Assembly (NCBI RefSeq): GCF_030770395.1
Contig: NZ_CP132480.1
Coordinates: 1,159,115 to 1,223,114 of the forward strand
DNA: 64,000 nt
Origin: Telluria beijingensis
Lineage (GTDB): Bacteria; Pseudomonadota; Gammaproteobacteria; Burkholderiales; Burkholderiaceae_D
Direction of reading: 5' to 3'
Positions 2,997 to 64,000 of this stretch are shown here, piece after piece. The position numbers and the translations under genes were made by a program. The stretch's first letter is position 1. Each line of letters opens with the position of its first letter. The notes beneath the pieces are model-generated. The model was not told the origin of the DNA. It saw nothing but the letters and a program-made list of their open reading frames with translations, and did no database searches.

Positions 2997-3025
2997 ATTT
3001 TTTAGAACCGAAGAAAGCGAAGACC

Positions 3026-4219: not shown

Positions 4220-5172
4220 GCCAGCCGCTGGACTTCAAACGTAATACCGGCATTGCGCTGGACCTGGGCCTGGTGAATAGCCTCAAGGTCAACCGCAACG
4301 CGGCCGACCGCCGCGCCGCCAGCCTGGCCAATCGCCGCACGGTCAAGAAGGAATACCAGGCCGCCTGGCTGGTCCGCGCCATCGAATGCATGGACCTGAC
4401 CACCCTGAGCGGCGACGATACCCCGGGCCGCGTCGAGCGCCTGTGCATGAAGGCGATGCGTCCGCTGCGCGCCGACCTGATGCAGGCCCTCGGTCTCGAG
4501 ACCCTGTCGACCGGCGCCGTCTGCGTGTACCACGAGATGATCCAGCCCGCCGTCAAGGTGATCCAGGGCCGGCTGCCGATCGCCGCCGTGTCGACCGCTT
4601 TCCCGGCCGGCCTGTCGAGCATGGAAACCAAGGTGCGCGAGATCGAATTGTCGGTGGCCGCCGGTGCGACCGAGATCGACATCGTCATCACCCGCCAGCA
4701 TGTGTTGACCGGTAACTGGCAGGCGCTGTACGACGAGATGGTGGCCTACCGCCAGGCCTGCGGCGAAGCGCACGTGAAAGCCATCCTCGCCACCGGCGAC
4801 CTGGTCACGCTGGAAAACGTCGCCAAGGCCTCGTGGGTCTGCATGATGGCCGGCGCCGATTTCATCAAGACCTCGACCGGCAAGGAAGGCGTCAACGCGA
4901 CCATCCCGGTGTCGCTGGTGATGGTGCGCGCGATCCGCGACTACCACGAGCAGACTGGCTTCCAGATCGGCTACAAGCCGGCCGGCGGCGTGTCGACCGC
5001 GAAGTCGGCGCTGCAATACCTGACCGTGATGAAGGAAGAACTGGGCAATGACTGGCTGCAGCCGCACCTGTTCCGCATCGGCGCGTCCAGCCTGCTGACC
5101 GACATCGAGCGCCAGCTGGAGCACTACGTGACCGGCAACTACTCGGCCGCCCATCGCCACGCGCAACCCTAA
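4216..5172 (+). CDS. deoC: Deoxyribose-phosphate aldolase DeoC
   Basis: The enzyme cleaves 2-deoxyribose 5-phosphate to glyceraldehyde 3-phosphate and acetaldehyde by a Schiff-base mechanism. The product has 318 residues and is the longer class-I type. The active-site Lys is in GADFIKTSTGKEGVNAT near residue 220, and the second conserved Lys is in IGYKPAGGVSTAKSAL near 257. ISTAFPAG-like and EIDIVITRQ strands of the TIM barrel are recognisable. The first 45 residues (KVNRNAADRRAASLANRRTV) form a basic extension found in this subgroup. The gene overlaps deoB by 4 bp and is followed after 15 bp by the aldehyde dehydrogenase that would oxidise its acetaldehyde. Confidence 0.95.
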   Translation: MSQPLDFKRNTGIALDLGLVNSLKVNRNAADRRAASLANRRTVKKEYQAAWLVRAIECMDLTTLSGDDTPGRVERLCMKAMRPLRADLMQALGLETLSTGAVCVYHEMIQPAVKVIQGRLPIAAVSTAFPAGLSSMETKVREIELSVAAGATEIDIVITRQHVLTGNWQALYDEMVAYRQACGEAHVKAILATGDLVTLENVAKASWVCMMAGADFIKTSTGKEGVNATIPVSLVMVRAIRDYHEQTGFQIGYKPAGGVSTAKSALQYLTVMKEELGNDWLQPHLFRIGASSLLTDIERQLEHYVTGNYSAAHRHAQP

Positions 5173-5187
5173 TTTTCCGGACTCGTC

Positions 5188-7566
5188 ATGCCAACAATTA
5201 AAGAGATTCTTCAGACCATGGATTACGGTCCCGCACCAGAAAGTACCAAGGAAGCGCTCGCGTGGCTGGACCAGCATGGCCGCCGTTTCGGGCTGTTCAT
5301 CGATAACGCCTGGACCGACGCTGCGGAAACGTTCGCCACCAACAATCCGGCCGATGGCGCCGAGCTGGCGCAGGTGACGCAGGCGACGCAGGACGACGTC
5401 GAGCGCGCCGTCGCCGCCGCACGCCGCGCGCAGCCGGGCTGGGTCGCCATGAAAGGCCACGGCCGCGCGAAGATCATGTACGCGCTTTCGCGTCTGCTGC
5501 AGAAGCATGCGCGCCTGTTCGCGGTGCTCGAGACGCTGGACAACGGCAAGACCATTCGCGAAACCCGCGACGCCGACCTGCCGCTGGCCGCGCGCCACTT
5601 CTATCATCACGCCGGCTGGGCGCAATTGCAGTCCGAAGAATTCGCCGACTACCGCGCCGTGGGCGTGGTCGGCCAGATCGTGCCGTGGAACTTCCCGCTC
5701 CTGATGCTGGCCTGGAAGATCGCGCCGGCGCTGGCCGCCGGTAACACCGTCGTGTTCAAGCCGGCCGAGTACACGCCCTTGACCGCGCTGCTGTTCGCCG
5801 AGATCTGCCAGCGCGCCGGCGTGCCGGCGGGTGTCGTCAACATCGTCACCGGCGATGGCCGCGTGGGCGAGGCGATCGTGAATCACCCGGGCATCGACAA
5901 GCTGGCCTTCACCGGCTCGACCGAAGTCGGCCGCCTGATCCGCAAGGCCACCGCCGGCAGCGGCAAGAAGCTGTCGCTGGAACTGGGCGGCAAGTCGCCG
6001 TTCATCGTGTTCGACGACGCCGACCTGGATGCGGCGGTCGAGGGCCTGGTCGATTCGATCTGGTTCAACCAGGGGCAGGTGTGCTGCGCCGGTTCGCGCC
6101 TGCTGGTGCAGGAGTCGGTGTACGACAAATTCATCGCCAAGGTGAAGGCGCGCATGCAGAACCTGCGCGTCGGCTCGCCGCTCGACAAATCGAACGATAT
6201 CGGCGCGCTGGTCGATCCGGTGCAGCAGCAGCGCATCCACGGACTCGTGGAATCGGCGCGCGCCGAAGGCTGCGAGGTGTGGCAGCCGAACGTGGAACTG
6301 TCGACCACCGGCTCGTGGTACCTGCCGACCCTGATCACGGGCGCGTCGACCTCGGCCGCCGTGGCCCAGGCCGAGATCTTCGGACCGGTGCTGGTGGCGA
6401 TGAGCTTCCGCACCCCGGCCGAGGCGGTGCAACTGGCCAATAACACCGTGTACGGCCTGGCGGCCTGCGTGTGGAGCGAGTCGATCAGCCTGGCGCTGGA
6501 CGTGGTCCCGCAGATCAAGGCTGGCGTAGTGTGGATCAATACCGCCAACCAGTTCGACGCGGCCTGCGGCTTCGGTGGCTACAAGGAATCGGGTTACGGC
6601 CGCGAAGGCGGCAAGGAGGGCATGTACGAGTACCTGGTGCCGCTGGCCGAGGATGCGCGTCCGAGCGCACCTGTCGTCGCCGAGAAGGCCAAGGCGAAGC
6701 CAGCGCCGGACGACAGCCCGTTCGCGGTCGACCGCACCGCCAAGCTGTACATCGGCGGCAAGCAGGCGCGCCCCGACGGCGCCTACAGCCGCGCGGTCAA
6801 TGGCGCCAACGGCGACTTCCTGGCGGATATCGGCGAAGGCAACCGCAAGGACATCCGCAACGCCGTCGAGGCGGCGCACAAGGCGTCCGGCTGGGCCAAG
6901 GCCACCGCGCACAACCGCGCGCAGGTGCTGTACTACATCGCCGAGAACCTGGCGATCCGCGCCGACGAATTCGCCCAGCGCATCGCGCAGCAAACCGGCG
7001 CGAAGGATGCGGCGCTGGAAGTAGCGGCGTCGATCGAGCGCCTGTTCTACTGGGCGGCGTGGGCCGACAAGTACGACGGCGCGGCCCACCAGCCGCCGAT
7101 GCACGGCATCACCGTGGCGCTCAATGAGCCGGTCGGCGTGATCGGCATCGTGTGCCCGAACGAGAACCCGCTGCTGGGCTTCATCTCGCTGGTGGCGCCG
7201 GCGCTGGCGCTGGGTAATCGCGTGGTGGCGGTGCCGTCCGAGCAGCATCCGCTGAGCGCCATCGACCTGTACCAGGTGCTCGATACCTCGGACCTGCCGG
7301 GCGGCGCGCTCAATATCGTCACTGGCTCGGCCGACGAACTGGCGCGCACGCTGGCTTCGCACGGCGATGTCGATGCGGTGTGGCGCCATGACGGCTCGGC
7401 TGAAGGTTGCGCCGAAGTCGAGCGCCTGTCGAGCGACTCGCTCAAGCGCACCTGGACCGGCGGCGGCAAGGGCCGCGACTGGTTCGATGCGAAGCAGGCG
7501 GGCGGCCGCGCGGTATTGCAGCATGCAAGCCAGGTCAAGAACGTCTGGATTCCGTACGGCGTGTAA
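5188..7566 (+). CDS. Tandem aldehyde dehydrogenase of the deo operon
   Basis: The 792-residue protein contains two aldehyde dehydrogenase units. The N-terminal unit (about residues 35-490) is complete. It has GQIVPWNFPLLMLAWKIAPA, FTGSTEVGRLI, LELGGKSPFIVFDDADLD and the catalytic Cys in FNQGQVCCAGSRL (Cys299/Cys300). The C-terminal unit (about 510-790) keeps the nucleotide-fold half (GVIGIVCPNENPLLGF, APALALGNRVVAVPSE, LNIVTGSADELA) but has no catalytic Cys motif. It ends in WTGGGKGRDWFD and is probably structural. The gene sits directly after deoC, so the likely substrate is the acetaldehyde released by DeoC, oxidised to acetate with NAD+. Such tandem enzymes next to deoC are known in proteobacteria. 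The substrate is inferred from context. Confidence 0.88.
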   Translation: MPTIKEILQTMDYGPAPESTKEALAWLDQHGRRFGLFIDNAWTDAAETFATNNPADGAELAQVTQATQDDVERAVAAARRAQPGWVAMKGHGRAKIMYALSRLLQKHARLFAVLETLDNGKTIRETRDADLPLAARHFYHHAGWAQLQSEEFADYRAVGVVGQIVPWNFPLLMLAWKIAPALAAGNTVVFKPAEYTPLTALLFAEICQRAGVPAGVVNIVTGDGRVGEAIVNHPGIDKLAFTGSTEVGRLIRKATAGSGKKLSLELGGKSPFIVFDDADLDAAVEGLVDSIWFNQGQVCCAGSRLLVQESVYDKFIAKVKARMQNLRVGSPLDKSNDIGALVDPVQQQRIHGLVESARAEGCEVWQPNVELSTTGSWYLPTLITGASTSAAVAQAEIFGPVLVAMSFRTPAEAVQLANNTVYGLAACVWSESISLALDVVPQIKAGVVWINTANQFDAACGFGGYKESGYGREGGKEGMYEYLVPLAEDARPSAPVVAEKAKAKPAPDDSPFAVDRTAKLYIGGKQARPDGAYSRAVNGANGDFLADIGEGNRKDIRNAVEAAHKASGWAKATAHNRAQVLYYIAENLAIRADEFAQRIAQQTGAKDAALEVAASIERLFYWAAWADKYDGAAHQPPMHGITVALNEPVGVIGIVCPNENPLLGFISLVAPALALGNRVVAVPSEQHPLSAIDLYQVLDTSDLPGGALNIVTGSADELARTLASHGDVDAVWRHDGSAEGCAEVERLSSDSLKRTWTGGGKGRDWFDAKQAGGRAVLQHASQVKNVWIPYGV

Positions 7567-7592
7567 TCGGCCCGGAACCTCAAAAAAACCCC

Positions 7593-7672
7593 CGTCATTC
7601 CCGCGCAGGCGGGAATCCAAGTACGCTAGCATGACGCGAACGCATTGGATTCCCGCCTCCGCGGGAATGACG
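7593..7672. repeat. REP-like long inverted repeat between ALDH and deoA
   Basis: Two 28-bp arms (7593-7620 and 7645-7672) are inverted copies that differ at one position and enclose a 24-bp loop. Each arm is itself a small palindrome of the type ATTCCCGC...GCGGGAAT, the motif seen in dRS3/REP-like elements of many proteobacteria. The RNA could form a very stable cruciform or long hairpin, which would separate or attenuate deoA-cdd expression from the upstream genes. It is the only such element I find in the window. Confidence 0.85.
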
Positions 7673-7704
7673 TTTTCAGGCTATTAGTGAAAACGGACTT
7701 AACT

Positions 7705-9027
7705 ATGTTCCTCCCCCAGGAAATCATCCGCAAGAAGCGTGACGGCGGCGTCCTCTCCGCCGAAGAGATCCGGTTCTTTGTCCGCGGCATCCCTGACGGC
7801 AGCGTCACCGAAGGCCAGATCGCGGCGTTTGCGATGGCGGTCTACTTCAAGGACATGACCATGGACGAGCGGGTCGCCTTCACCCTGGCGATGCGCGATT
7901 CGGGCCAGGTCATGGAGTGGAAATCCTTGAACTTGCCAGGCCCGGTGGTCGACAAGCATTCGACCGGCGGTGTCGGCGACGTGGTCTCGCTGATGCTGGG
8001 ACCGATGATTGCGGCCTGCGGCGGCTTCGTGCCGATGATCTCGGGCCGCGGCCTGGGCCATACCGGCGGCACGCTCGACAAATTCGACGCGATCCCGGGC
8101 TACAGCACGGTGCCGGAACCCGAGAAATTCCGGCAGGTAGTGAAAGACGTGGGCGTGGCCATCATCGGCCAGACCGCCCAGCTGGCGCCGGCCGACAAGC
8201 GTTTCTACGGCATCCGCGACACGACGGCGACTGTCGAATCGGTGGCCATGATCACCGGTTCGATCCTGTCGAAGAAGCTGTCGGCGGGCCTGGACGCGCT
8301 GGTGATGGACGTGAAGGTCGGCAGCGGCGCCTTCATGCCGACCGCGCAGAAATCGGTGGAGCTGGCCGAATCGATCGTCAGCGTCGGCAACGGCGCCGGC
8401 ACCCGCACCTCGGCCATCCTGACCGGCATGGACGAATCGCTGTGCCACGCGGCCGGCAATGCGGTCGAGGTGCGGGTCGCGATCGACTACCTGAGCGGCA
8501 AGTCGCGCCCGGCGCGCCTGCATGCGGTGACGATGGCGCTGTGCGCCGAGATGCTGGTGATATCGAACCTGGCCTCGACTGAGGAGGAAGCGCGCGCCAG
8601 ACTGCAGGCCGCGCTGGATTCGGGCGCAGCCGCCGAGCGCTTCGCGCGCATGGTCGCCGCCCTGGGCGGCCCGGCCGACCTGATGGACAAGCCGGACGCC
8701 TACCTGGAAACGGCGCCGGTCATCGTGCCCGTGCCGAGCCTGCAGGCCGGCTACGCGACCTCGGTCGACACCCGCGGCCTGGGCCTGGCGGTGGTGGCGC
8801 TGGGCGGTGGCCGCGTGCGGCCTCAGGATGCGATCGATTACGCAGTTGGCCTGACCGGCCTGGTCGAGCTGGGCGACCAGGTCGCCGTCGGCCAGCCGCT
8901 GGCGATGGTGCATGCGCGCACCCAGTCCGCGGCCGAGCAGGCGATCCGCCAGGTGCAGGCCGCCTACCAGTTCGGCGCTGCGAAAGCGGCAGCCGCGCCC
9001 ATGATCCACCGCACCATCCGTCCTTGA
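7705..9027 (+). CDS. deoA: Thymidine phosphorylase DeoA
   Basis: The enzyme cleaves thymidine and deoxyuridine to base and deoxyribose 1-phosphate. The 440-residue protein has the usual length and the family signature [20 protein letters not shown] near residue 113. Other landmarks are [15 protein letters not shown] (phosphate site), [29 protein letters not shown] and the C-terminal domain with ALGGGR and [13 protein letters not shown]. The open frame extends back into the inverted repeat, but ATG 7705 gives the standard N-terminus [14 protein letters not shown]. It follows the REP-like repeat and precedes cdd by 10 bp. Deoxyribose 1-phosphate passes to DeoB. Confidence 0.96.
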
Positions 9028-9037
9028 GGGCCGAAGC

Positions 9038-9442
9038 ATGAAATACGCGAAACTGATCGATGAAGCACGCGCCGCGCGCGAGCTGGCCTATGCCCCGTAC
9101 TCGCAGTTCAAGGTAGGGGCCGCGCTGGAGTGCAAGGATGGCCGCATCTTCCGTGGGTGCAATGTGGAGAACGCCGCCTACGGCCTGTGCAATTGCGCCG
9201 AGCGCACCGCCTTGTTCAGCGCCATTGCCAGCGGCTACCGGCCGGGTGACTTCTTGGCGCTCGCCGTGATCGGCCAGACCGAGGGCCCGATCGCGCCGTG
9301 CGGCGCCTGCCGCCAGGTGATTCTCGAGCTGGGCGGCAACGCATTGCCGGTGGTCCTGACCAACCTGGAAGGGGCCGTGTTCGAGACCACGGCGGCAGAG
9401 CAGTTGCCGAATGCCTTCGGCGGGCGTGACCTCGGTATGTGA
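9038..9442 (+). CDS. cdd: Cytidine deaminase Cdd
   Basis: The enzyme deaminates cytidine and deoxycytidine to the uridine forms that DeoA or other phosphorylases can cleave. The 134-residue protein is the short homotetrameric type. It has the zinc site CNVENAAYGLCNCAERTA near residue 47, with the catalytic Glu in CAER, and PCGACRQVILELG near residue 86. It begins 10 bp after deoA and ends the operon. No convincing terminator follows. Confidence 0.96.
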   Translation: MKYAKLIDEARAARELAYAPYSQFKVGAALECKDGRIFRGCNVENAAYGLCNCAERTALFSAIASGYRPGDFLALAVIGQTEGPIAPCGACRQVILELGGNALPVVLTNLEGAVFETTAAEQLPNAFGGRDLGM

Positions 9443-9518
9443 ACAGGCCTTGTGATCCGGGATTCGGCCACCACTGTGATGACATCCTTGCATGACCAAC
9501 CTTTATTCGGAGGTAGCA

Positions 9519-9845
9519 ATGAAAAAAGTCATCGTCCTGTTAAGCGGTGTCATCATCGCGGCGGGCGCCGCAGCCCAGGCTGACAAGACCGGTTCGCAGA
9601 CCACGCAGGCGACCCGAACCGAAACCGTCGACCGGCAGCTTCCGATCAACAGCGAGCGAGCGAAGCGGGAAAACCCGGCCGCGGAAGGACCGGAAAGCGC
9701 GAATATCGTGGATCCCGATTTCCAGGGCAGCAGCAAGCAAGAAGCGACCTCGTCCGGCTTGGGACAGCCGAAGAAGGATGAGAAGCGCACTTCCGGCAAG
9801 CCCCGGTCGGATGCCCACGACGTGGAAGACAAGACGAAGCAATAG
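9519..9845 (+). CDS. Small exported protein of unknown function
   Basis: I do not recognise the family. The 108-residue product starts at an ATG 6 nt after the strong ribosome site GGAGGT. It begins with a clear Sec signal peptide (MKKVIVLLSGVIIAAGAAAQA, cleavage after about residue 20). The mature part is hydrophilic, rich in Lys, Glu, Ser and Thr, and looks disordered (RAKRENPAAEGPES, QEATSSGLGQPKKDEKR). It lacks Cys and ends in DVEDKTKQ. It stands alone, converging on the DUF2058 gene. An in-frame upstream ATG at 9492 would spoil the signal peptide and is rejected. Confidence 0.7.
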   Translation: MKKVIVLLSGVIIAAGAAAQADKTGSQTTQATRTETVDRQLPINSERAKRENPAAEGPESANIVDPDFQGSSKQEATSSGLGQPKKDEKRTSGKPRSDAHDVEDKTKQ

Positions 9846-9856
9846 TGCTTCGCTAT

Positions 9857-9876
9857 GGCGGCCCCGCGAGGCCGCC
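9857..9876. terminator. GC hairpin between convergent genes
   Basis: A 7-bp perfect stem, GGCGGCC (9857-9863) and GGCCGCC (9870-9876), encloses the loop CCGCGA. It lies between the ends of two convergent genes, where it could act in both directions. There is no T-run, so it is a weak terminator candidate. Confidence 0.4.
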
Positions 9877-9881
9877 CTCGA

Positions 9882-10418
9882 TCACCACATCAGGTCGTCC
9901 GGGATCTTGAAGTCGGCGTAAGGATCGTCTTCCTCGACTTCCTGCACTTTTTTCTTGACCTGCACCACGATGGCCGCATCGCGCTGGGCGATCTTCTCGC
10001 CGATCACGCGCGGCACCAGTTCGAAGCTGCCATTCATGTGCACGATCACCAGGCGGCCAGCCACCAGGTGCTCGACGATCTGGGCCGTCACGTGGATGCG
10101 CTCGACCTTGGTGCCGAAGGTAAAGTTATAGGGCACGTCGCCCTTGCCCTTCGATTGCTTGTTCTGCTGCACCAGTTGGGCGATCTGGGCCAGGATGGCT
10201 TTCTGGGCCGCGGCGGCGTCGCGCTGGGCATTGAGCTCTCGCGCGCGTTCGGCATTCTGGCGCTGCACCTCGAGCGCTGCTTCACGCGATTCGTTGACCT
10301 TTTCCACGCCGGTGCGCAGCACTTCCTTGTGTTGCTTGCTCTTGTCCTGGTTGACCTGCTTGACCTTCTTCTTGTCGACCAGGCCGGCTTTCAATAACTG
10401 CTCCTGCAGCGAGACCAT
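9882..10418 (-). CDS. DUF2058 family nucleoprotein-like protein (YaiL type)
   Basis: The 178-residue protein matches the DUF2058/YaiL family in length and layout. The N-terminus MVSLQEQLLKAGLVDKKK is followed by a long charged coiled-coil region (residues 20-95, rich in Lys, Gln and Arg). A C-terminal beta-rich domain contains YNFTFGTKVERIHVT, HLVAGRLVIVHMNGSFELVP and a final DDPYADFKIPDDLMW. Members have been called polynucleotide- or ribosome-associated, but no activity is firmly known. It is a single gene; the ATG at 10418 is the family start. Confidence 0.85.
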   Translation of the reverse strand: MVSLQEQLLKAGLVDKKKVKQVNQDKSKQHKEVLRTGVEKVNESREAALEVQRQNAERARELNAQRDAAAAQKAILAQIAQLVQQNKQSKGKGDVPYNFTFGTKVERIHVTAQIVEHLVAGRLVIVHMNGSFELVPRVIGEKIAQRDAAIVVQVKKKVQEVEEDDPYADFKIPDDLMW

Positions 10419-10510
10419 GTTGTGCTTCCTTGCAAAAAATATGACCGGCCACCCGTCGATGCGGGCGGCGCCAGGGCGCTAGCATAGCAACAAGCGCGGC
10501 GGAAAGCGAT

Positions 10511-10924
10511 TCAGGAAGCCGCTTTCCAGGGATCGTAGGTGCCCACGTTCCATACATGGCCCTCAGGATCGCGGCAGGCGAATTCGCGTCCGCCGTATGG
10601 CGCGTCATCGATGACCCTGACGATGTCGGCGCCGCTGTCGACCACCCGCGCATACACATCGTCGGCATCCGGCACGCGGATCCAGATGGTCTGGGTCTGC
10701 AGGCCGCCGGTCTTGCCGGGCGTGGTCAGCAACTGGCCGTAGTCGTCGTCGGCCTCGGTGCCGATCATGACCATGCCGTCACCCAGCGTCAGCTCCGCAT
10801 GGCTCACGCCGCCATTCTTGCCTGGCACCACCAGGCGTTTTTCAAAACCAAGATTGCTGCACAGCCAGTCGATCAGCGCGGGTGTGTCGCGGTAACGCAG
10901 GCAGGGAACCACGGTCGAGCTCAT
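10511..10924 (-). CDS. VOC-superfamily (glyoxalase/bleomycin-resistance fold) protein
   Basis: The 137-residue protein has the two beta-alpha-beta-beta-beta modules of the vicinal oxygen chelate fold. It starts VVPCLRYRDTPALIDWLCSNLGFEK, continues with HAELTLGDGMVMIG, then IWIRVPDADDVYARVVDSGADIV, and ends with FACRDPEGHVWNVGTYDPW. This is the PhnB/YraH-like type often annotated as a glyoxalase or dioxygenase-like protein. The substrate cannot be told. The ATG at 10924 has a good ribosome site (GGAGG). Monocistronic as far as can be seen. Confidence 0.82.
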   Translation of the reverse strand: MSSTVVPCLRYRDTPALIDWLCSNLGFEKRLVVPGKNGGVSHAELTLGDGMVMIGTEADDDYGQLLTTPGKTGGLQTQTIWIRVPDADDVYARVVDSGADIVRVIDDAPYGGREFACRDPEGHVWNVGTYDPWKAAS

Positions 10925-54802: not shown

Positions 54803-55252
54803 CTATTTCAGGACGGCGCGGAAGGTGATTTCGATCAGCTGCACCGGCTGTGAAAGTCCCGCAACGCCGATCAGGTTGCTCGCGCACAGCGGCCGCGGCA
54901 CGCCATACATCTCTTTCCTGACCTTGCCGGCAACGGCAAACGCCGCCTCGACGTCGGTTACGAACAAGGTCTCTTCGACCACGTCATCGAGGGTGGCGCC
55001 GAATTCGGCGAGCATGGCGATGGCGTTCTTGTAGGTCTGGCGCATTTGCGCTTCCATGGCCGATCCGTCGACCGGCTTGCCATCCGCGCCGAGCTCCGCC
55101 GGCGCGATGAAATTGCCATCCTTGTCGTGGCTGAGTTGGCCGGACACATAGATCACATCCTTGACCTGGACGGCCTGGTAATAACTGTAGGCTTCTTCCC
55201 AAGGGACGCCGTGGGCGGCGGTCTTTCGTTCGAGATTGGTGTTCGTGTTCAT
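54803..55252 (-). CDS. RidA/YjgF-family protein
   Basis: The 149-residue protein has the RidA fold. It starts with WEEAYSYYQAVQVKDVIYVSGQLSHDKDGNF and continues with MRQTYKNAIAMLAEFGATLDDVVEETLFVTDVEAAF. The signature near the C-terminus is RPLCASNLIGVAGLSQPVQLIEITFRAVL. The Arg and Glu used by RidA deaminases are replaced or shifted (CASNLIGVAGL in place of xxRxxVxVxxLP), so it may belong to an Rid subgroup without imine deaminase activity. The ribosome site AAGGAG precedes ATG 55252. Monocistronic. Confidence 0.85.
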   Translation of the reverse strand: MNTNTNLERKTAAHGVPWEEAYSYYQAVQVKDVIYVSGQLSHDKDGNFIAPAELGADGKPVDGSAMEAQMRQTYKNAIAMLAEFGATLDDVVEETLFVTDVEAAFAVAGKVRKEMYGVPRPLCASNLIGVAGLSQPVQLIEITFRAVLK

Positions 55253-56774: not shown

Positions 56775-57491
56775 TCAGGAAGCGTCGGCCGCCCCTTCCT
56801 TCTCCTTGCGTATGCGCGCGATCAGGATGCGCTTGTTCTCGCGGCTGCGATAGGCGTGCTCGCGCAGGATCGCTTCCGCGCGCGCGCCTTCGCGCCGGGT
56901 GATGGCCTGCAGCAGGTCTTCGTGGTCGGCCTGGGCGCGATGGACGAACGCGAGCTCCAGGTCGGACGGCACTTCGGGCAGGGGCAGGGCGCCCGGCCCC
57001 GCCATCGGAATCTTGTTATTGTGTTCCAGCGCCGACGCCAGCGCGCGGTTGTTCGCGGTCGTCACCAATAGGCGGTGAAACTGGCCGTTGATCGCGCGCC
57101 AGGCCTCGGCATCGAGCACCGCGCCCGGCCGGGATGCCGTGTCGAGCAGGGCGCGTCCGCGCCGCACCACGTCCTCAAGGCTGGCCAGTTCGGCGCTGCT
57201 CGCGCCGCGCTCGGCCACGATGCGCGCCGCCATCCCCTCCAGCACGCCGCGCACATCCACCGCCTCGGCGATGTCTTCCAGTGAAAACGAGCGCACCCGG
57301 TAACCGCGGGTGGGCAGGCGCTCGAGCAGGCCTTCTGTTTCCAGTTCTATCAGCGCCAGCCGCAACGGCGTGCGCGACACGCCCAGGCGGGCCGCGAACG
57401 GGATCTCCACGATGCGTTCGCCGGGCGCGAGTTCACCCGACAGTACCAGGTCCCGCAAGTGCGAGACCACATGAGCGATTTGGGTTGCCAT
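56775..57491 (-). CDS. GntR-family regulator with FCD effector domain
   Basis: The 238-residue protein has an N-terminal winged helix (residues 5-70, LVLSGELAPGERIVEIPFAARLGVSRTPLRLALIELETEGLLERLPTRGYRV). A C-terminal all-helical FCD domain follows (about 80-225), with VRGVLEGMAARIVAERGAS, INGQFHRLLVTTANN and HEDLLQAITRREGARAEAILREH. The FCD metal/ligand His residues are visible at FHRLL, DHEDL and EHAYRS. It diverges from the aromatic catabolic genes and almost certainly controls them and itself through the three palindromes in the intergenic region. The ligand is probably a pathway acid. Confidence 0.93.
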   Translation of the reverse strand: MATQIAHVVSHLRDLVLSGELAPGERIVEIPFAARLGVSRTPLRLALIELETEGLLERLPTRGYRVRSFSLEDIAEAVDVRGVLEGMAARIVAERGASSAELASLEDVVRRGRALLDTASRPGAVLDAEAWRAINGQFHRLLVTTANNRALASALEHNNKIPMAGPGALPLPEVPSDLELAFVHRAQADHEDLLQAITRREGARAEAILREHAYRSRENKRILIARIRKEKEGAADAS

Positions 57492-57671: not shown

Positions 57672-58526
57672 ATGAAACTCGCAAGCTACCGATTCCGCGG
57701 CCGGGAGGGCTGGGGCGTCGTGACCGATACCGGCATCGCGCCGCTCGCCGACCAGTGGCCGACCATCGGCGACGGCCTGGCGGCCGGGCTACTGGCGCTT
57801 GGCCAGGCACTGGCGCGGCAGCCGGCGCGCATCGCGCGCGCCGACGTCGAATGGAGCGCCCCGGTCACCCCGTCGTGCAAGATTCTTTGCGTCGGCATCA
57901 ACTACGCCCTGCACATCGCCGAGAGCCGGCGCGAGACCCCAGCCTATCCATCGATCTTCATCCGCTTCGCCGATTCCTTCGTCGGACACGAACAAGCCAT
58001 CGTGCGGCCTGCGGCATCGAGCCAGTTCGATTTCGAGGCCGAACTCGCCGTCGTGATCGGCCGCCACTGTCGCCACGCCAGCGTCGACGACGCCCTCGAC
58101 TATGTCGGCGGCTATACCTGCCTGGGCGACAACTCGGTGCGCGATTTCCAGAAGCACGCCGCCCAGGTCACGGCCGGCAAGAACTGGGACGGCAGCGGCA
58201 GCATCGGTCCGTGGATCGTGACCGCCGACGAGATCGCGGCGCCGCAAGACCTGGCCATCGCCTGTCGCCTGAACGGCGTCGAGATGCAGCGCGGCCACAG
58301 CGCCGACATGCTGTTCCCGGTCGCGCGCCTGGTGTCCTATATATCCACATTCACCACCCTGCGCCCGGGCGACATCGTCGCCACCGGCACCCCGAGCGGG
58401 GTCGGCGCGAGCCGCACGCCGCCGGTCTGGATGCAGGCCGGCGACCGGCTGGAAATCGAGATCGCCGGCATCGGCGTGCTGGTCAATCCGGTCATCCAGG
58501 AAGCGCCGGCCACCAGCGCCACCTGA
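57672..58526 (+). CDS. Fumarylacetoacetate hydrolase-family protein
   Basis: The 284-residue protein has the FAH fold. The metal-binding acidic residues are in SQFDFEAELAVVIGRHCR (E-x-E) and TCLGDNSVRDFQ (Asp). Other landmarks are KILCVGINYALHIAESRRE, KNWDGSGSIGPWIV, GHSADMLFPVARLVSYISTFTTLRPGDIVATGTPSGVG. This group hydrolyses or isomerises acylpyruvates such as fumarylpyruvate, or acts on 2-oxo-diacids of meta-cleavage routes. The frame is open upstream, but ATG 57672 (GGAG before it) gives the family start. It is the first gene of the catabolic operon. The exact substrate depends on the ring-cleavage product. Confidence 0.88.
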   Translation: MKLASYRFRGREGWGVVTDTGIAPLADQWPTIGDGLAAGLLALGQALARQPARIARADVEWSAPVTPSCKILCVGINYALHIAESRRETPAYPSIFIRFADSFVGHEQAIVRPAASSQFDFEAELAVVIGRHCRHASVDDALDYVGGYTCLGDNSVRDFQKHAAQVTAGKNWDGSGSIGPWIVTADEIAAPQDLAIACRLNGVEMQRGHSADMLFPVARLVSYISTFTTLRPGDIVATGTPSGVGASRTPPVWMQAGDRLEIEIAGIGVLVNPVIQEAPATSAT

Positions 58527-58567
58527 CGCTTGCCAACACTTACCCACACCACCTCCAGGACAAGACC

Positions 58568-59671
58568 ATGAGTGACATCTACAAGCCATTTGTCGACGTG
58601 AGCGGCGCTGCGCCACGCGAGCAGACGAAGTGGAGCTCCATCATCGTGAGCAAGGAAGACATCGACCTCGAAATCGAGCGCCTCATCAACCTGCCGAAGC
58701 CGGCCAACGGCCGCCGCGCCGCGCTGATCGTGCATCCGCAGGCGACCCTGCCGGGCCTGGGTTTCGCGCCGTCGACCGACGTCACGATCAATGTGGTCAA
58801 CCCGGGCGAGAGCACGCTCAACCTGCGCAAGAATTCGAACATGCTCGAGATCTGCCTGTCCGGCCAAGGCGTGGCGGTGGTCGGCAAGCGCGAGATCGCG
58901 GTACAGAAATGGGACGTCTGGAACACTCCTGCCATGCAGGTGCACTCGTACCGCAATACCGGCCAGCAGCCTTGGGTGCGCCTGTCGTACTCGAATGCGC
59001 CGGTGCTGGAAAAGCTCGAGGTGCACTTCGCCGAGGAATTCGAAGGCGACGTGCCGCCGGCCGACCGCAACACCACCCCGGCCGCGCCGCGCGGCGACGT
59101 CAGCCGGGCGCGCGACCTGGCCCTGCGTGAGCAGATCGGCGACGACGGCGCCCACCTGCTGGGGTATGAGTGGCTGATCGACATCGACGTGGTCGAATCG
59201 AAGCCCCTGCACTGGCCATATGCCAAGGTGGCCGGCTACCTGCCGAGCGTCGAAGACCTGGCCAAGGGCTATAACGGACGGCGCCTGTTCGTGCTCTACA
59301 ACCCGGCCACCGAGCGCCGCAACGGCACCACCCACAGCTTCTTCGCGACCATCTCGTCTTCGCCGCCGAACAACAGCCATGTGCCCCATCGCCACAGCTC
59401 GTCGGCGATCAATTACTACCTGCGCGGCCATGGCCACAGCATGGTCGAGGGCCGCCGCTTCGACTGGAAGGCCGGCGACCTGCTGCTGTCGGCGCCGGGC
59501 TGGGCGATGCACGCCCACAACTCGGGTTCCGAGACGGTGTCGTCGCTGACGGTGCAGGACCATCCCTTCCATATCGGGATCGAATCGCTGATCTGGCAGG
59601 AGCGCTCGTACGAACCGATCATCGCACTGGGCAGCCAGCCCGGTTTCGAGAGCAACCGCGGCTCGCTGTGA
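58568..59671 (+). CDS. Bicupin ring-cleavage dioxygenase candidate
   Basis: The 367-residue protein has two cupin domains. The N-terminal one (about residues 70-150, NVVNPGESTLNLRKNSNMLEICLSGQGVAVV) lacks the His ligands of the cupin motif. The C-terminal one (about 275-340) has them: VPHRHSSSAINYYLRGHGHS and then GDLLLSAPGWAMHAHNSG. Gentisate 1,2-dioxygenase, the expected enzyme after a salicylate 5-hydroxylase, is a bicupin but as I recall carries its iron in the N-terminal cupin. This protein is therefore a distant or different member. Its position between the hydrolase and the oxygenase genes points to ring cleavage. The ATG at 58568 follows a purine-rich stretch. Confidence 0.75.
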   Translation: MSDIYKPFVDVSGAAPREQTKWSSIIVSKEDIDLEIERLINLPKPANGRRAALIVHPQATLPGLGFAPSTDVTINVVNPGESTLNLRKNSNMLEICLSGQGVAVVGKREIAVQKWDVWNTPAMQVHSYRNTGQQPWVRLSYSNAPVLEKLEVHFAEEFEGDVPPADRNTTPAAPRGDVSRARDLALREQIGDDGAHLLGYEWLIDIDVVESKPLHWPYAKVAGYLPSVEDLAKGYNGRRLFVLYNPATERRNGTTHSFFATISSSPPNNSHVPHRHSSSAINYYLRGHGHSMVEGRRFDWKAGDLLLSAPGWAMHAHNSGSETVSSLTVQDHPFHIGIESLIWQERSYEPIIALGSQPGFESNRGSL

Positions 59672-59710
59672 ACCGGGCGCCATCCACCGACCATCCACCG
59701 AAAGACCGTC

Positions 59711-60196
59711 ATGACCTATTCCCGTGAACATGCCGCACTGCGCGCCGACCTGCGCGACTTCTATGAAGAGTACGCCGTCTGCCTGGACGAGGAAGACCTC
59801 GAGCGCTGGCCCGACTTCTTCGTCGAGGATTGCCGCTACCGCGTCACCGCGCGCGAGAACTACGACCAGAAACTGCCGTATGGCCTGATCCTGTGCCTCA
59901 ACAAGAACATGGTCAAGGACCGCGTGCTTGCGCTGCGCCAGACCACCATGTACGAGCCGCGCTCGCTGCGCCACTTCATCAGCGCGATCAAGGTCAAGCG
60001 CATCGATGGCGACACCATCGAGGCGCAAGCCAATTTCATGATCGTCGAATCGCAGTCGGACCGCGAGCCGGTGGTCAATATGGTCGGCCGCTACATCGAT
60101 ACGCTGGTGCGCACCGCCGACGGCTTCCTGCTCAAGGACCGCGACTGCGTGTGCGACAACTACCGCGTCCGCACCTCGCTGATCATTCCCGTTTAA
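59711..60196 (+). CDS. Rieske oxygenase small (beta) subunit, NagH-like
   Basis: The 161-residue protein has the cone-shaped alpha+beta fold of ring-hydroxylating dioxygenase beta subunits. It has LRADLRDFYEEYAVCLDEEDLERWPDFFVEDCRYRV, then ARENYDQKLPYGLILCLNKNMVKDRVLALRQT, and ends with LLKDRDCVCDNYRVRTSLIIPV. The length and motifs match NagH of salicylate 5-hydroxylase. It precedes the large subunit gene by 20 bp, the reverse of the usual nagG-nagH order. The subunit is structural. Confidence 0.9.
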   Translation: MTYSREHAALRADLRDFYEEYAVCLDEEDLERWPDFFVEDCRYRVTARENYDQKLPYGLILCLNKNMVKDRVLALRQTTMYEPRSLRHFISAIKVKRIDGDTIEAQANFMIVESQSDREPVVNMVGRYIDTLVRTADGFLLKDRDCVCDNYRVRTSLIIPV

Positions 60197-60216
60197 ACGC
60201 CGCTGGAGAACCCATC

Positions 60217-61488
60217 ATGACTTCCCCCTGCAACCACGAGCACGACGCGCCGCCAGCGCAAGCACCGATCGTCTTCCACCGCCGCTGGCCCGAGGAGGGC
60301 TTCACCCGTATCCCTAACTGGATCTACACCGACGAGGCGATCTTCCAGAAGGAGATGGATGTCTTCTTTGCCGGCAAGACCTGGAACTATGTCGGCCTCG
60401 AATGCGAGATCCCGGAACCGGGCAATTTCAAGCGCCAGTGGATCGGCACCCGTCCGGTCATCATGGTGCGCAAGGAGAATGGCGAGATCAGCGTGATCGA
60501 GAACCGCTGCGCCCACCGCGGAGCCCAGATCTGCTGGCAGAACACCGGCACCGTGAAGGATTTCACCTGCCCCTACCACCAGTGGAACTATGACCTCGAC
60601 GGCAACCTGCAAGGCGTGCCGTTCAAGCGCGGCGCGCTGGGCAAGGGCGGCATGCCGCGCGACTTCAGCAACAAGGAGAACAGCCTCAACAAGCTGCGCA
60701 CGGTCAACCGCGGCGGCTCGATCTGGGCCACTTTCGCCGCCGACGCACCCGACTTCGAGGAATACTGCGGCCCCGAAGTGCTGGCCGAGATCGACCACAT
60801 GTTCCCCGGTAAGAAGCTGACCCTGCTCGGCTACAGCCGCCAGCTCATTCCGAGCAACTGGAAGATGTACCTCGAAAACCTGAAGGACCCTTACCACGCC
60901 ACGCTGCTGCATACCTTCTACATCACCTTCGGCCTGTGGCGCGCCGATTCGAAGTCCGAGAACATCCCGACCGGCGGCGGCAAGCACAGCGTGATGGTGT
61001 CGCACAACGAAGGCAAGAAGGTGACCGATGCCACGGCCGAGATGGGGCGCTTCCGCTCCGACCTCGAGCTGCTCGACAAGGAAACCGTGACGCCGCGCGC
61101 CGAATTCAACCGCGGACGGGTCGGCGGCGCCTGGATCTTCCCGGCGGCGCAGATGGGCATCCAGGCCAATTCGCTCAAGACCCGCCACGTGATCCCGCGC
61201 AGCCCGACCGAGCACGAGCTGGTGTTCACGTATTACGGCTACGAGGACGACGACGAAGAGATGCAGCGCCTGCGCCTGAAGCATGCCAACCTGCTGGGGC
61301 CAGCCGGCTTCGTGTCGATGGACGATAGCGAGATGCTGAGCCAGATGCAGATCGGCGTGACCGGCTATCCGGATTCGACGGGCATCATCGAGATGGGCGG
61401 GCGCGACACCGAGCCGACCGACTATATGGTGACCGAGGTGCTGATCCGCGCCTTCTACCAGTATTACCGCGAAGCGATGGGGCTGTGA
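60217..61488 (+). CDS. Rieske oxygenase large (alpha) subunit, salicylate 5-hydroxylase-like (NagG)
   Basis: The 423-residue protein has the Rieske [2Fe-2S] ligands Cys98-x-His100 (ENRCAHRGAQ) and Cys118-x2-His121 (FTCPYHQWNYD). The mononuclear iron site of the catalytic domain is in LENLKDPYHATLLHTFY (Asp, His, His). The length equals that of NagG, and the sequence pattern is of the salicylate/anthranilate-type group. It should hydroxylate an aromatic acid, using electrons from the ferredoxin encoded 1 bp downstream and the reductase after that. Salicylate to gentisate is the nearest model, but the substrate could be a substituted analogue. Confidence 0.88.
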   Translation: MTSPCNHEHDAPPAQAPIVFHRRWPEEGFTRIPNWIYTDEAIFQKEMDVFFAGKTWNYVGLECEIPEPGNFKRQWIGTRPVIMVRKENGEISVIENRCAHRGAQICWQNTGTVKDFTCPYHQWNYDLDGNLQGVPFKRGALGKGGMPRDFSNKENSLNKLRTVNRGGSIWATFAADAPDFEEYCGPEVLAEIDHMFPGKKLTLLGYSRQLIPSNWKMYLENLKDPYHATLLHTFYITFGLWRADSKSENIPTGGGKHSVMVSHNEGKKVTDATAEMGRFRSDLELLDKETVTPRAEFNRGRVGGAWIFPAAQMGIQANSLKTRHVIPRSPTEHELVFTYYGYEDDDEEMQRLRLKHANLLGPAGFVSMDDSEMLSQMQIGVTGYPDSTGIIEMGGRDTEPTDYMVTEVLIRAFYQYYREAMGL

Positions 61489-61489
61489 T

Positions 61490-61810
61490 ATGAGCGCGAC
61501 CTGGATCCCCATTGCTAAAGTAGCGGACGTGCCGCTTGAAACCGGCACCCTGCGCGTCGCCCATGGCGGCGAGGCCGTGTGCCTGTACCTGCTGGGCGGC
61601 GACGTGCGCGCGACACAGGACAAATGCCCGCACGGTAACGCCAGCCTGTCCGAGGGCTATATCGTCGACGAGATGATCGAATGCCCGCTGCACCAGGGGC
61701 TGTTCGACATCGCCACCGGCGAGGTGCGCAGCCCGCCATGTACCGTCAACCTGGCCACCTATCCGGTGAAAGTCGAAGACGGCGTCATCTACCTCGAGGA
61801 GACTGCCTGA
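61490..61810 (+). CDS. Rieske-type [2Fe-2S] ferredoxin of the oxygenase
   Basis: The 106-residue protein has the Rieske ligands in DKCPHGNASLSEGY and IECPLHQGLFDIATGE. It is the biphenyl/naphthalene-type ferredoxin (NagAb-like) that carries electrons from the reductase to the oxygenase. Its ATG lies one base after the alpha-subunit stop, and its TGA overlaps the reductase ATG by one base (TGATG). Confidence 0.93.
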   Translation: MSATWIPIAKVADVPLETGTLRVAHGGEAVCLYLLGGDVRATQDKCPHGNASLSEGYIVDEMIECPLHQGLFDIATGEVRSPPCTVNLATYPVKVEDGVIYLEETA

Positions 61811-63027
61811 TGGCGGCGCCGACGATCGTCGTGATCGGCGCCGGCCAGGCCGGCGCCTGGGCCGCGCGCACCTTGCGCAGCGAAGGATACGCCGGACGGA
61901 TCGTGCTGGTGGGCGACGAAGCCCATCCTCCGTACGAGCGGCCGCCGCTGTCGAAGGAACAGCTGCAGCTTGATCCCGCGCCGTTCGAGTTCCTGCTGCC
62001 GGCGGCCGAACTGGCCGCACTCGACATCGCCTGGCGTCCCGCGCTGGGCTGCTGCCGCATCGACCGCGGCGCGCGCGCCGTGGTGCTGGACGACGGCAGC
62101 GCCATCCCCTACGACAAGCTGATCCTGGCAACCGGCGGCCACGCGCGCCTGCCGCAACTGCCCGGCATCGATGCCGCCTGTGTGCATACCTTGCGCACGC
62201 TGGACGATGCCCGGCGCCTGCGCGCCGCCATGCGGCGCGGCGCGCGGGTGCTGGTGATCGGCGGTGGCTGGATCGGGCTGGAAGCTGCCGCTGCGGCGCG
62301 CGCGCTGGACTGCGCCGTCACCGTGGTCGAAGCCGGGCCGTCCCTGTGCGCGCGCAGCGCCTCGCCGCTGTTGTCAAACATGCTGGCCGAACTGCACCGC
62401 GCCAACGGCGTCGACCTGCGCCTGGCGAGCGGCATCGAGGCGCTCGAACAGGCCGGGGCCGAGGGCTGCAGCGCGCTGTTCGCCGACGGCAGCCGTGAAT
62501 CCTTCGACCTGGTGGTGGTCGGCATCGGACTGGTGCAGAGCGACGGGTTGGCGCGCGCGGCCGGGCTGCGCTGCGAGCGCGGGATCGTGGTCGACCGCCA
62601 GTGCCGCACCTCCGATCCCGATATTTATGCGGCCGGCGACGTCACCGCGATCCATGCCGACGACGGCGTGCTGCGCCTGGAATCCTGGCAGAACGCGCAG
62701 GACCAGGGCATCGCCGCCGCCCGCGCCGCGCTGGGACAAGAGGTCGATTACCGGCCATTGCCGTACTTCTGGTCGCAGCAGTACGAGACCATGGTGCAGC
62801 TGGCTGGGGTCTGCGGCAGCGGTCACCAGCAGCTCAGCCGCAGCATCGGGCCGGGCAGGATGGTGTCGATGGAGCTCGATGCGCAGGGGCGCGCGCTGTC
62901 GGCCATCGTCACCAACAGCCCGCGCGATTTTCGCACCTTGCGCAAATTCGTCGCCGATGGCGCGCGCATCGATGCCGCGCGCTTTGCCGATCCGGCAGTG
63001 CCGCTGCCGCAGATCGTAGTGGCCTGA
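61810..63027 (+). CDS. Ferredoxin-NAD(P)+ reductase (BphA4-type) of the oxygenase
   Basis: The 405-residue flavoprotein is of the glutathione-reductase-like type. It has TIVVIGAGQAGAWAARTLRSEGYAGRIVLVGDEAHPPYERPPLSK (FAD site), RVLVIGGGWIGLEAAAAA (NADH site) and PDIYAAGDVTAIHADDGVLRLESWQNAQDQGIAAA. It feeds electrons from NADH to the Rieske ferredoxin. The nag operon uses a plant-type reductase instead, so the electron chain here has a different composition. It is translationally coupled to the ferredoxin gene. Confidence 0.93.
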   Translation: MAAPTIVVIGAGQAGAWAARTLRSEGYAGRIVLVGDEAHPPYERPPLSKEQLQLDPAPFEFLLPAAELAALDIAWRPALGCCRIDRGARAVVLDDGSAIPYDKLILATGGHARLPQLPGIDAACVHTLRTLDDARRLRAAMRRGARVLVIGGGWIGLEAAAAARALDCAVTVVEAGPSLCARSASPLLSNMLAELHRANGVDLRLASGIEALEQAGAEGCSALFADGSRESFDLVVVGIGLVQSDGLARAAGLRCERGIVVDRQCRTSDPDIYAAGDVTAIHADDGVLRLESWQNAQDQGIAAARAALGQEVDYRPLPYFWSQQYETMVQLAGVCGSGHQQLSRSIGPGRMVSMELDAQGRALSAIVTNSPRDFRTLRKFVADGARIDAARFADPAVPLPQIVVA

Positions 63028-63049
63028 ACCCGGGCACCGGCTCCGCCCC

Positions 63050-63066
63050 GGAACAAGTCTTGTTCC
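63050..63066. repeat. 17-bp perfect palindrome after the reductase gene
   Basis: GGAACAAGTCTTGTTCC has 8-bp arms and a single central base. It starts 22 bp after the reductase stop, in the 122-bp gap before the SnoaL-like gene. It could be an operator or an RNA hairpin; there is no T-run. Confidence 0.5.
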
Positions 63067-63149
63067 AGGGCGCCACTTGCCCGGCAATTTGCCATAAGGC
63101 ACCATGAAACGACGGGCACCAGCACCGTCGACAACCAGGAGACGCAGTC

Positions 63150-63560
63150 ATGACAACGCCAGACCTGCATGCCATCGCGGCCGTGGTCTACCGCTTTTTT
63201 GCCGGCCTCGATGCGCGCGACCACGGCGCCTGCGCCGCGCTGATGGCGCACGACGGCGTCTGGCATCGCCAGGGCGCCGAACTTGTCGGTCCAACCGCCG
63301 TGCTGGCGGCGCTCGAAGGGCGCGACCCGGCGCGCCAGACCGCCCATCTCGTGACCAATCTGTGGATCGAGGAGGCCGACGCGGCGCAGGCGCGCGTGCG
63401 CTTCTACCTGAGCGCCCATGAAGCGCGGGTCGACGCCGATGGCCGCGCCGGACCGGTGCAGCTGGCCGGCCTGCGCGACTGCACTGACGAGCTGGTGATA
63501 GAGGACGGGCAGTGGCGCATCCGCAGCAAGACCAGCCGCCGCCTGCTGCCGGCCGAATAA
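63150..63560 (+). CDS. SnoaL-like (NTF2-fold) protein
   Basis: The 136-residue protein has the SnoaL_4/NTF2-like fold: DLHAIAAVVYRFFAGLDARDHGACAALMAHDGVWHRQGAELVG, HLVTNLWIEEADAAQARVRFYLSAHE and DCTDELVIEDGQWRIRSKTSRRLLP. Its fold is shared with Rieske oxygenase beta subunits, but it lacks the extra elements of those. Such proteins can be isomerases, dehydratases or binding proteins. The position between the reductase and the hydratase suggests a step in the same pathway. The ATG at 63150 follows CAGGAGACGCAG. Confidence 0.82.
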   Translation: MTTPDLHAIAAVVYRFFAGLDARDHGACAALMAHDGVWHRQGAELVGPTAVLAALEGRDPARQTAHLVTNLWIEEADAAQARVRFYLSAHEARVDADGRAGPVQLAGLRDCTDELVIEDGQWRIRSKTSRRLLPAE

Positions 63561-63586
63561 CAATCTGGATTCACCCGGAGATCATC

Positions 63587-64000
63587 TTGCTTTCACCTTC
63601 CATCATCGAACAACTGGCCGCGGAGTTCCTCGAGGCCGAGACCAGCCGCACCCCGATCCGGCAGATTTCGCTGCGCCATCCCGACATCACCATCGACGAC
63701 GCCTATGCCATCCAGAGGGCCTGGGTGCAAAAGAAGATCGACGGCGGCAATGCGCTCAAGGGCCACAAGATCGGCCTGACCTCGCGCGCGATGCAGCAGG
63801 CGGTGGGCATCACCGAACCCGATTCCGGCGCGCTGCTCGCCGATATGTTCTTCCGCGATGGCGACACCATCCCGACCGACCGCTTCATCGCGCCCCGGGT
63901 CGAGGTCGAACTGGCCTTCATCATGGACCGCCGCCTGGAAGGCCCCAACGTGACCCTGTTCGACGTGCTCGATGCGGTGCGCTACGTAACGCCGGCGCTC
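63587..64000 (+). CDS. hpaH: 2-oxo-hepta-3-ene-1,7-dioate hydratase-like protein HpaH (5' part)
   Basis: The first 138 codons are present; the rest lies beyond the window. The start is TTG at 63587, 6 nt after GGAG, giving LLSPSIIEQLAAEFLEAE. Family landmarks are IDDAYAIQRAWVQKKI, LKGHKIGLTSRAMQQAVG, EPDSGALLADMFF and APRVEVELAFIMDR (metal ligands). HpaH hydrates 2-hydroxyhepta-2,4-dienedioate in homoprotocatechuate degradation. In the standard gentisate pathway no hydratase is needed, so its presence here suggests that the ring-cleavage product is a hydroxydienoate-like acid, or that the substrate is not salicylate. Confidence 0.87.
   Translation, partial: MLSPSIIEQLAAEFLEAETSRTPIRQISLRHPDITIDDAYAIQRAWVQKKIDGGNALKGHKIGLTSRAMQQAVGITEPDSGALLADMFFRDGDTIPTDRFIAPRVEVELAFIMDRRLEGPNVTLFDVLDAVRYVTPAL

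Follow-up and report, generated by a model that had tools for sequence, protein, structure and literature searches.

A Telluria beijingensis gene cluster that probably opens an aromatic acid with an unusual bicupin variant and ends in steps resembling another pathway

Which aromatic-acid route is encoded at the end of a 64,000-nucleotide stretch of the Telluria beijingensis genome (hereafter the window, G000:C1:1159115-1223114 of a genome of one 6.02 Mb contig), where genes of a bicupin, a ring-hydroxylating oxygenase and an HpaH hydratase follow one another on the plus strand? The first-pass annotation of the window had proposed that the cluster departs from the textbook gentisate route, and this was borne out by the low gentisate-dioxygenase score of the bicupin (72.2 bits against a cut-off of 442.1), by a better match elsewhere in the genome, and by hpaI and a succinate-semialdehyde dehydrogenase (SSADH) gene, both above curated cut-offs, that were found after hpaH when the reading was extended past position 64000. 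Ring opening probably falls to an unusual variant of a known enzyme, and the last steps resemble those of another pathway; the textbook gentisate route is unlikely, and the cluster has the look of a route that is undescribed. A literature search by titles and abstract openings, with most subscription journals outside its coverage, found no description of the gene set; PMC4539516 and PMC9241852 have no direct bearing on it. The set is not a product of chance, because similar sets were found in other genomes.

By open reading frames (ORFs) and family matches, the plus-strand order is FAH, bicupin, oxygenase beta and alpha subunits, ferredoxin, reductase, SnoaL and HpaH, and the ORFs of the extended contig continue past 64000 with HpaI, SSADH, Bug, LysR, the OCD (ornithine-cyclodeaminase family) protein and a porin. 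The members on which the argument turns are given below in window positions, or in positions of the downstream locus L009, to which 55885 is added to obtain the window position; paired bit scores are score and cut-off.

57672..58526, plus strand: FAH-superfamily protein (PF01557, 240.7 bits), putative isomerase or decarboxylase of the ring-cleavage product
58568..59671, plus strand: bicupin, putative ring-cleaving dioxygenase, metal site placed in the C-terminal cupin
59711..60196, plus strand: ring-hydroxylating oxygenase beta subunit (PF00866, Ring_hydroxyl_B, 57.1 bits; AndAd, 154 of 230 bits)
60217..61488, plus strand: ring-hydroxylating oxygenase alpha subunit of the NagG/AndAc/TphA2 family (PDB 7c8z, 410 bits)
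61490..61810, plus strand: Rieske ferredoxin (PF00355, 67.8 bits; AndAb, 92.5 of 150 bits)
61810..63027, plus strand: BphA4/HcaD-type ferredoxin reductase (HcaD, 349.6 of 450 bits; AndAa, 318.4 of 650 bits)
63150..63560, plus strand: SnoaL-like protein (SnoaL_4, PF13577, 59.3 bits), putative isomerase
about 63587 (TTG start, placed by eye)..64390, cut by the window at 64000, plus strand: HpaH hydratase (TIGR02312, 440/351.5 bits)
L009:8502-9314: HpaI aldolase (HpaI model, 407.6/368.8 bits)
L009:9338-10804: SSADH (730.7/646.35 bits)
L009:12979-13983: OCD-family protein (PF02423, 166.7 of 24 bits)

Curated NCBIfam cut-offs were passed by HpaH, HpaI and SSADH, and the FAH, the four oxygenase parts, the SnoaL-like protein and the bicupin lay below all of them. 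The HpaH-like hydratase and the SnoaL-like protein between reductase and hydratase, both named in the first-pass annotation, were recovered as described.

The bicupin was compared with the gentisate dioxygenases through family scores, an alignment of the metal motif and matches of the fold. By its score on the gentisate 1,2-dioxygenase model TIGR02272 it is not a gentisate dioxygenase, and the HxH...H motif was located in the C-terminal cupin in all 20 aligned rows of its clade and in the N-terminal cupin in 0/20, agreeing with the earlier claim that the metal ligands lie in the C-terminal cupin only, whereas 12/12 gentisate-dioxygenase rows have the motif in the N-terminal cupin. Judged from this motif, the C-terminal cupin would be the one that binds the metal. 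The bicupin shares 13-18% identity with salicylate 1,2-dioxygenase (SDO; 2PHD) and gentisate 1,2-dioxygenases (3BU7, 2D40), whose metal motif is N-terminal, and its predicted structure matched the bicupin fold common to the two enzymes. On the evidence given here, the name gentisate 1,2-dioxygenase that several relatives have from their source is probably a misnomer for this clade. The 5-aminosalicylate dioxygenase model MabB (NF049978) was not reached either (64.2 of 650 bits), and its search in 300 genomes gave no match, with the controls also without match. Asp325 of the bicupin was considered as a counterpart of Asp174, the residue of SDO that binds gentisate at its 5-OH, and was dropped, as it aligns with a C-terminal-cupin Asp present in gentisate dioxygenases too. 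The best gentisate-dioxygenase match of the genome (314 bits, below cut-off) lies about 3 Mb from the cluster. This locus (L105, G000:C1:4310000-4327000; ORFs 2220-10511) has the motif in both cupins and is neighboured by an FAH gene and, by eye, by GST-type isomerase, maleate-isomerase-like, nitrilase-fold and 2-oxoacid-ferredoxin-oxidoreductase-like genes.

The lower pathway is settled at family level by the matches of its members. HpaH is nearest in PDB to HpaH 2eb4 (383 bits) and is the sole TIGR02312 match in the genome, HpaI is nearest to 4-hydroxy-2-oxoheptanedioate aldolases (372-377 bits), and the aldehyde dehydrogenase is above the subfamily cut-off for succinate-semialdehyde dehydrogenase and below that for HpaE (420.5 of 638.35 bits). 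The FAH protein is nearest to HpaG (185 bits, versus 89.6 bits for fumarylpyruvate hydrolase). HpaH, HpaI and SSADH are thus common to this cluster and the 4-hydroxyphenylacetate (homoprotocatechuate) lower pathway, but entry here is by the bicupin, and HpaD, HpaE and HpaF were not recognised by eye among the translated ORFs of the extended locus; a PF02962 search in the genome gave no match, with controls also without match. The continuation after hpaH did not turn out to be an unrelated homoprotocatechuate operon, with no further gene of that pathway recognised by eye. The term 'meta-type', previously used for the lower pathway, is loose, no extradiol enzyme having been recognised.

A contig scan with the bicupin alignment retained 79 related loci, many of them from Achromobacter or Bordetella and so not independent, and including three pairs of neighbours on the same contigs (L016/L064, L017/L063 and L018/L062); neighbours were counted by tblastn (E up to 1e-8, coverage at least 35%) with cut flanks included. 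The OCD gene was the commonest close neighbour of the bicupin, being present anywhere in 61/79 loci and within 500 bp on the same strand in 55/79, or in 40 of the 56 loci flanked on each side by 8 kb or more. This close linkage extended beyond Achromobacter and Bordetella (e.g. L047, L052, L054, L058, L062-L064, L068, L073, L082, L084, L085 and L089-L094), by record titles into Alpha- and Betaproteobacteria, Actinomycetes, Mycobacterium and metagenome-assembled genomes (MAGs) of other groups. FAH was found in 52/79 loci, the alpha subunit in 51/79 and SSADH of the window's type in 7/79. HpaH occurred in 34/79 and HpaI in 21/79, with HpaH lacking HpaI in 14 loci, and a DHDPS-type aldolase in 14/79, coinciding with HpaH in one (L060, a 24% match); HpaH, with or without HpaI, and the DHDPS-type aldolase are therefore almost mutually exclusive. 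SnoaL (47/79) and a CMD-like protein (9/79; PF02627, 32.5 bits) never co-occurred (0/79), and may share one isomerisation.

The OCD-family protein is a nucleotide-dependent reductase or cyclodeaminase by family and the sole PF02423 match in the genome, with a pyrroline-2-carboxylate reductase as nearest PDB match (100 bits), and it stayed below the OCD-type NCBIfam equivalogs, ornithine cyclodeaminase and related (best 146.1 of 417 bits). An NAxG[AS]I motif was present in 63 of 65 linked OCD matches, with Ile at the position of the alanine dehydrogenase Asp.

How these families could work together was read from their chemistry; the families were tested, and the substrate, the ring-cleavage product, the OCD step and the roles of FAH and SnoaL are what we infer. 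The cleavage product of salicylate is C7H6O5 and the usual HpaH substrate C7H8O5, therefore a two-electron reduction is missing between them. The DHDPS fold includes hydratase-aldolases such as PhdJ. The 2-oxo-enoate substrate of HpaH, together with the near-exclusivity of HpaH and the DHDPS-type aldolase, points to an alkylidene-pyruvate as ring-cleavage product, the type that arises when an ortho-hydroxy acid is opened next to its carboxyl group, as happens with PhdI-PhdJ-PhdK (PMC8347714) and in the direct cleavage of salicylate (PMC4600096). The reading that we tentatively favour, at somewhat less than an even chance, is that the cluster degrades an ortho-hydroxy aromatic acid and bypasses gentisate. 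In the first step, the three-component NagG-family Rieske oxygenase would convert a presumed benzoate-type acid, at a presumed ring position, into the compound whose ring is opened. The bicupin would then open the ring between the carboxyl- and hydroxyl-bearing carbons, giving a C7 2-oxo-dienedioate as SDO does. Third, OCD with NAD(P)H would reduce one double bond, converting the C7H6O5-level product to the C7H8O5 acid for HpaH, a C=C reduction deduced from mass balance next to an observed genomic linkage, and at this stage FAH and SnoaL may isomerise or decarboxylate. Lastly, as predicted from their families, HpaH would hydrate, HpaI release pyruvate and succinic semialdehyde, and SSADH form succinate.

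In the 1-hydroxy-2-naphthoate pathway, PhdI belongs to the bicupins and PhdJ has the DHDPS fold. The order of reactions here would be that of PhdI-PhdJ-PhdK, the ring-cleaving dioxygenase, hydratase-aldolase and aldehyde dehydrogenase of that pathway (PMC8347714), a likeness drawn from enzyme names and not from Phd sequences. The present cluster differs in its presumed one-ring acid, in the separate HpaH and HpaI, and in the extra OCD, FAH and SnoaL genes. Direct cleavage of salicylate has a recorded product (PMC4600096), for which the literature searched yielded no lower pathway. Riboflavin catabolism, where the cupin LumY is a dienedioate hydratase, was set aside as another system, its ring being opened by a catechol dioxygenase (PMC12746152).

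Several observations weigh against this route. OCD was absent from 18/79 loci (L016-L018, L040, L043, L044, L048, L053, L055, L070, L074, L075, L077-L079, L083, L086 and L088); L016-L018 are among them, yet their neighbouring sets L062-L064 have one. In another 18 loci, nine of them from Achromobacter or Bordetella, OCD was found while HpaH, HpaI and DHDPS gave no match at the locus. Some of the loci have cut flanks. In T. beijingensis the OCD gene lies about 9 kb downstream of the bicupin end with the LysR gene between, and no OCD-family match found acts on C=C, the named activities being on imines or amino acids. NagG-type hydroxylation would place the OH at C5 and so give gentisate, not an unsubstituted product. 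SDO Arg127 is essential for salicylate (PMC10306065), and its spacing-equivalent place is Asn in 24/24 sequences, a comparison between different cupins. The DHDPS-type protein of L058 passes the dapA model (263.8 of 206.15 bits) and fails TIGR02313 (311.5 of 396.7 bits), and all 60 of its listed PDB matches are named DHDPS.

The top PDB sequence match of the alpha subunit is salicylate 5-hydroxylase (7c8z); the subunit is 46.7% identical with a protein annotated as NagG, 38.8% with TphA2 and 37.1% with an AndAc (L124, which scores 818 of 750 bits on the AndAc model). In a tree of 36 rows, including 11 alpha subunits of the window's type and 10 of a second bicupin-linked type, these two types formed a modestly supported group (80/93), which became a strong one when a further row was included (100/99), while NagG and a pA81 relative formed a separate pair (100/100). 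The NagG/NagH likeness first assigned to the oxygenase is seen in the nearest PDB match of alpha; alpha does not group with NagG, and the best NCBIfam match of beta is AndAd, below cut-off. The anthranilate dioxygenase models were all unmet (AndAc 375/750, AndAd 154/230, AndAb 92.5/150 and AndAa 318/650 bits). With NagGH and AndA the cluster shares a Rieske subfamily and its carboxylate-binding Arg (NagG R323/TphA2 R309), which was present in 36/36 rows and marks the subfamily only. The HcaD/BphA4 type of the reductase was confirmed, but is not telling for the route, since the AndAa model matches this type too; the enzyme is of the pyridine-nucleotide-disulphide type, whereas the nag loci examined have NagAa or a 2Fe-2S protein there.

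At TphA2 columns 290, 292 and 307, Gly, Trp and Lys were found in 11/11 rows of the window's type. The second type has Gly/Ala, Thr/Ala and Gly/Ala there, and NagG has Met, Thr and Ser, and therefore the window-type enzyme probably has its own substrate. Its Lys precedes the carboxylate-binding Arg by two residues and might point to a further acid group on the substrate, e.g. an ortho-dicarboxylate. A terephthalate-type substrate was rejected, because the TphA2 residues for the second carboxylate (N224, S243 and R390, from PMC9060491) are Trp, Val and Met here.

A gentisate route with a divergent dioxygenase, in which a salicylate 5-hydroxylase supplies gentisate, the bicupin cleaves it, FAH hydrolyses maleylpyruvate, and HpaH, HpaI and SSADH serve another substrate in the operon, is unlikely: the nearest PDB relative of alpha, the FAH gene adjoining the bicupin, and a fold match to gentisate dioxygenase nearly as good as that to SDO are consistent with it, but the bicupin has a poor score and its metal motif in the opposite cupin, FAH is closer to HpaG than to fumarylpyruvate hydrolase, another bicupin in the genome scores far higher as a gentisate dioxygenase, HpaH and HpaI recur beside the bicupin clade, and the alpha pocket columns are unlike NagG.

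The same ring opening might also proceed with no reduction, HpaH and HpaI taking the diene to pyruvate and fumaric semialdehyde and the SSADH-type enzyme forming fumarate, with OCD doing something else. Such a scheme needs no OCD to be chemically complete, corresponds to PhdI-PhdJ-PhdK in each of its steps (PMC8347714), and suits the 18/79 loci devoid of OCD; against it stand the place of OCD as commonest close neighbour and sole family match in the genome, and an aldehyde dehydrogenase above the succinate-semialdehyde subfamily cut-off, which together make it improbable. Least probable is an anthranilate- or aminobenzoate-type substrate with OCD reducing or deaminating an imine after ring opening, which would fit the imine or amino-acid activities of OCD relatives of known structure, the sub-cut-off AndA matches, the amidase and CN_hydrolase genes beside Binatia-type bicupin relatives, but which conflicts with the nitrogen-free C7 acid expected by the HpaH-HpaI-SSADH end, the Ile replacing the alanine dehydrogenase Asp, the MabB score and the upstream RidA-like gene (by eye, window 54803-55252, minus strand, lying some kilobases upstream), for which tblastn gave 0 matches in 84 related loci, so that nitrogen chemistry via this gene was rejected.

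Returning to the route through OCD, L073 has a VanA_C oxygenase and L093 one that resembles LigXa_C, though below cut-off (25.9 of 27 bits), which suggests that the core accepts o-hydroxy acids made in different ways. A wider proposal, which we regard as rather doubtful, is a widespread undescribed aerobic ortho-hydroxy-acid route, in which a bicupin with a metal site shifted to the C-terminal cupin would open the ring, OCD would act as C=C reductase, and the product would enter the homoprotocatechuate lower pathway, either by HpaH and HpaI or by a single hydratase-aldolase of DHDPS type, the entry oxygenase being swapped as a module (two NagG-type clades, VanA/LigXa-like, or none seen), with an ortho-dicarboxylate-like substrate hinted at by the window-type Lys and FAH as a decarboxylase. 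The bicupin was detected in 5/300 genomes of the order, its own included (E up to 1e-20), and in 8/72,556 plasmid records. A Paraburkholderia DHDPS-type copy is annotated as 2,4-dihydroxyhept-2-ene-1,7-dioate aldolase.

Some loci are organised differently. Three large-plasmid loci were fetched (L095, L096 and L097), and all three have OCD and an aldolase gene, in L096 on the opposite strand about 7 kb off and with a 33% aldolase match. In Noviherbaspirillum and Paraburkholderia ferrariae, the three neighbouring pairs consist of two different adjoining bicupin and oxygenase sets, with HpaH and HpaI once between them. Five MAG loci (L074, L075, L078, L079 and L083; by title four Binatia or Binatota and one Desulfurellaceae) have a bicupin relative of 47-48% and no OCD, and the L074 neighbours include amidase, CN_hydrolase, Amidohydro_2 and luciferase-like genes, a setting that suggests another chemistry. 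In a Mycobacterium, two proteins (L094:12004-13322) encoded beside the OCD, bicupin and DHDPS-type genes have no match in Pfam and by eye recall 3-hydroxyanthranilate-dioxygenase-like cupins with CxxC pairs.

The remaining genes around the cluster are the following.

56775..57491, minus strand: GntR-type regulator (ORF of 238 aa, named by eye), divergent from the operon
L009:10869-11852: Bug-type protein
L009:11918-12862: LysR (by eye)
L009:14293-15327: porin (by eye)

Many related loci have a homologue of the GntR gene upstream of their bicupin. Against the Bug protein, terephthalate-binding proteins (247 bits) score much as other members of its family do (254 and 240 bits), which does not discriminate the substrate.

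The cluster offers a concrete, testable gene set for a lower pathway of the direct salicylate cleavage product, and, if OCD does reduce a C=C bond, this would be a new activity in a family whose reactions, as far as they were met here, concern imines and amino acids only.

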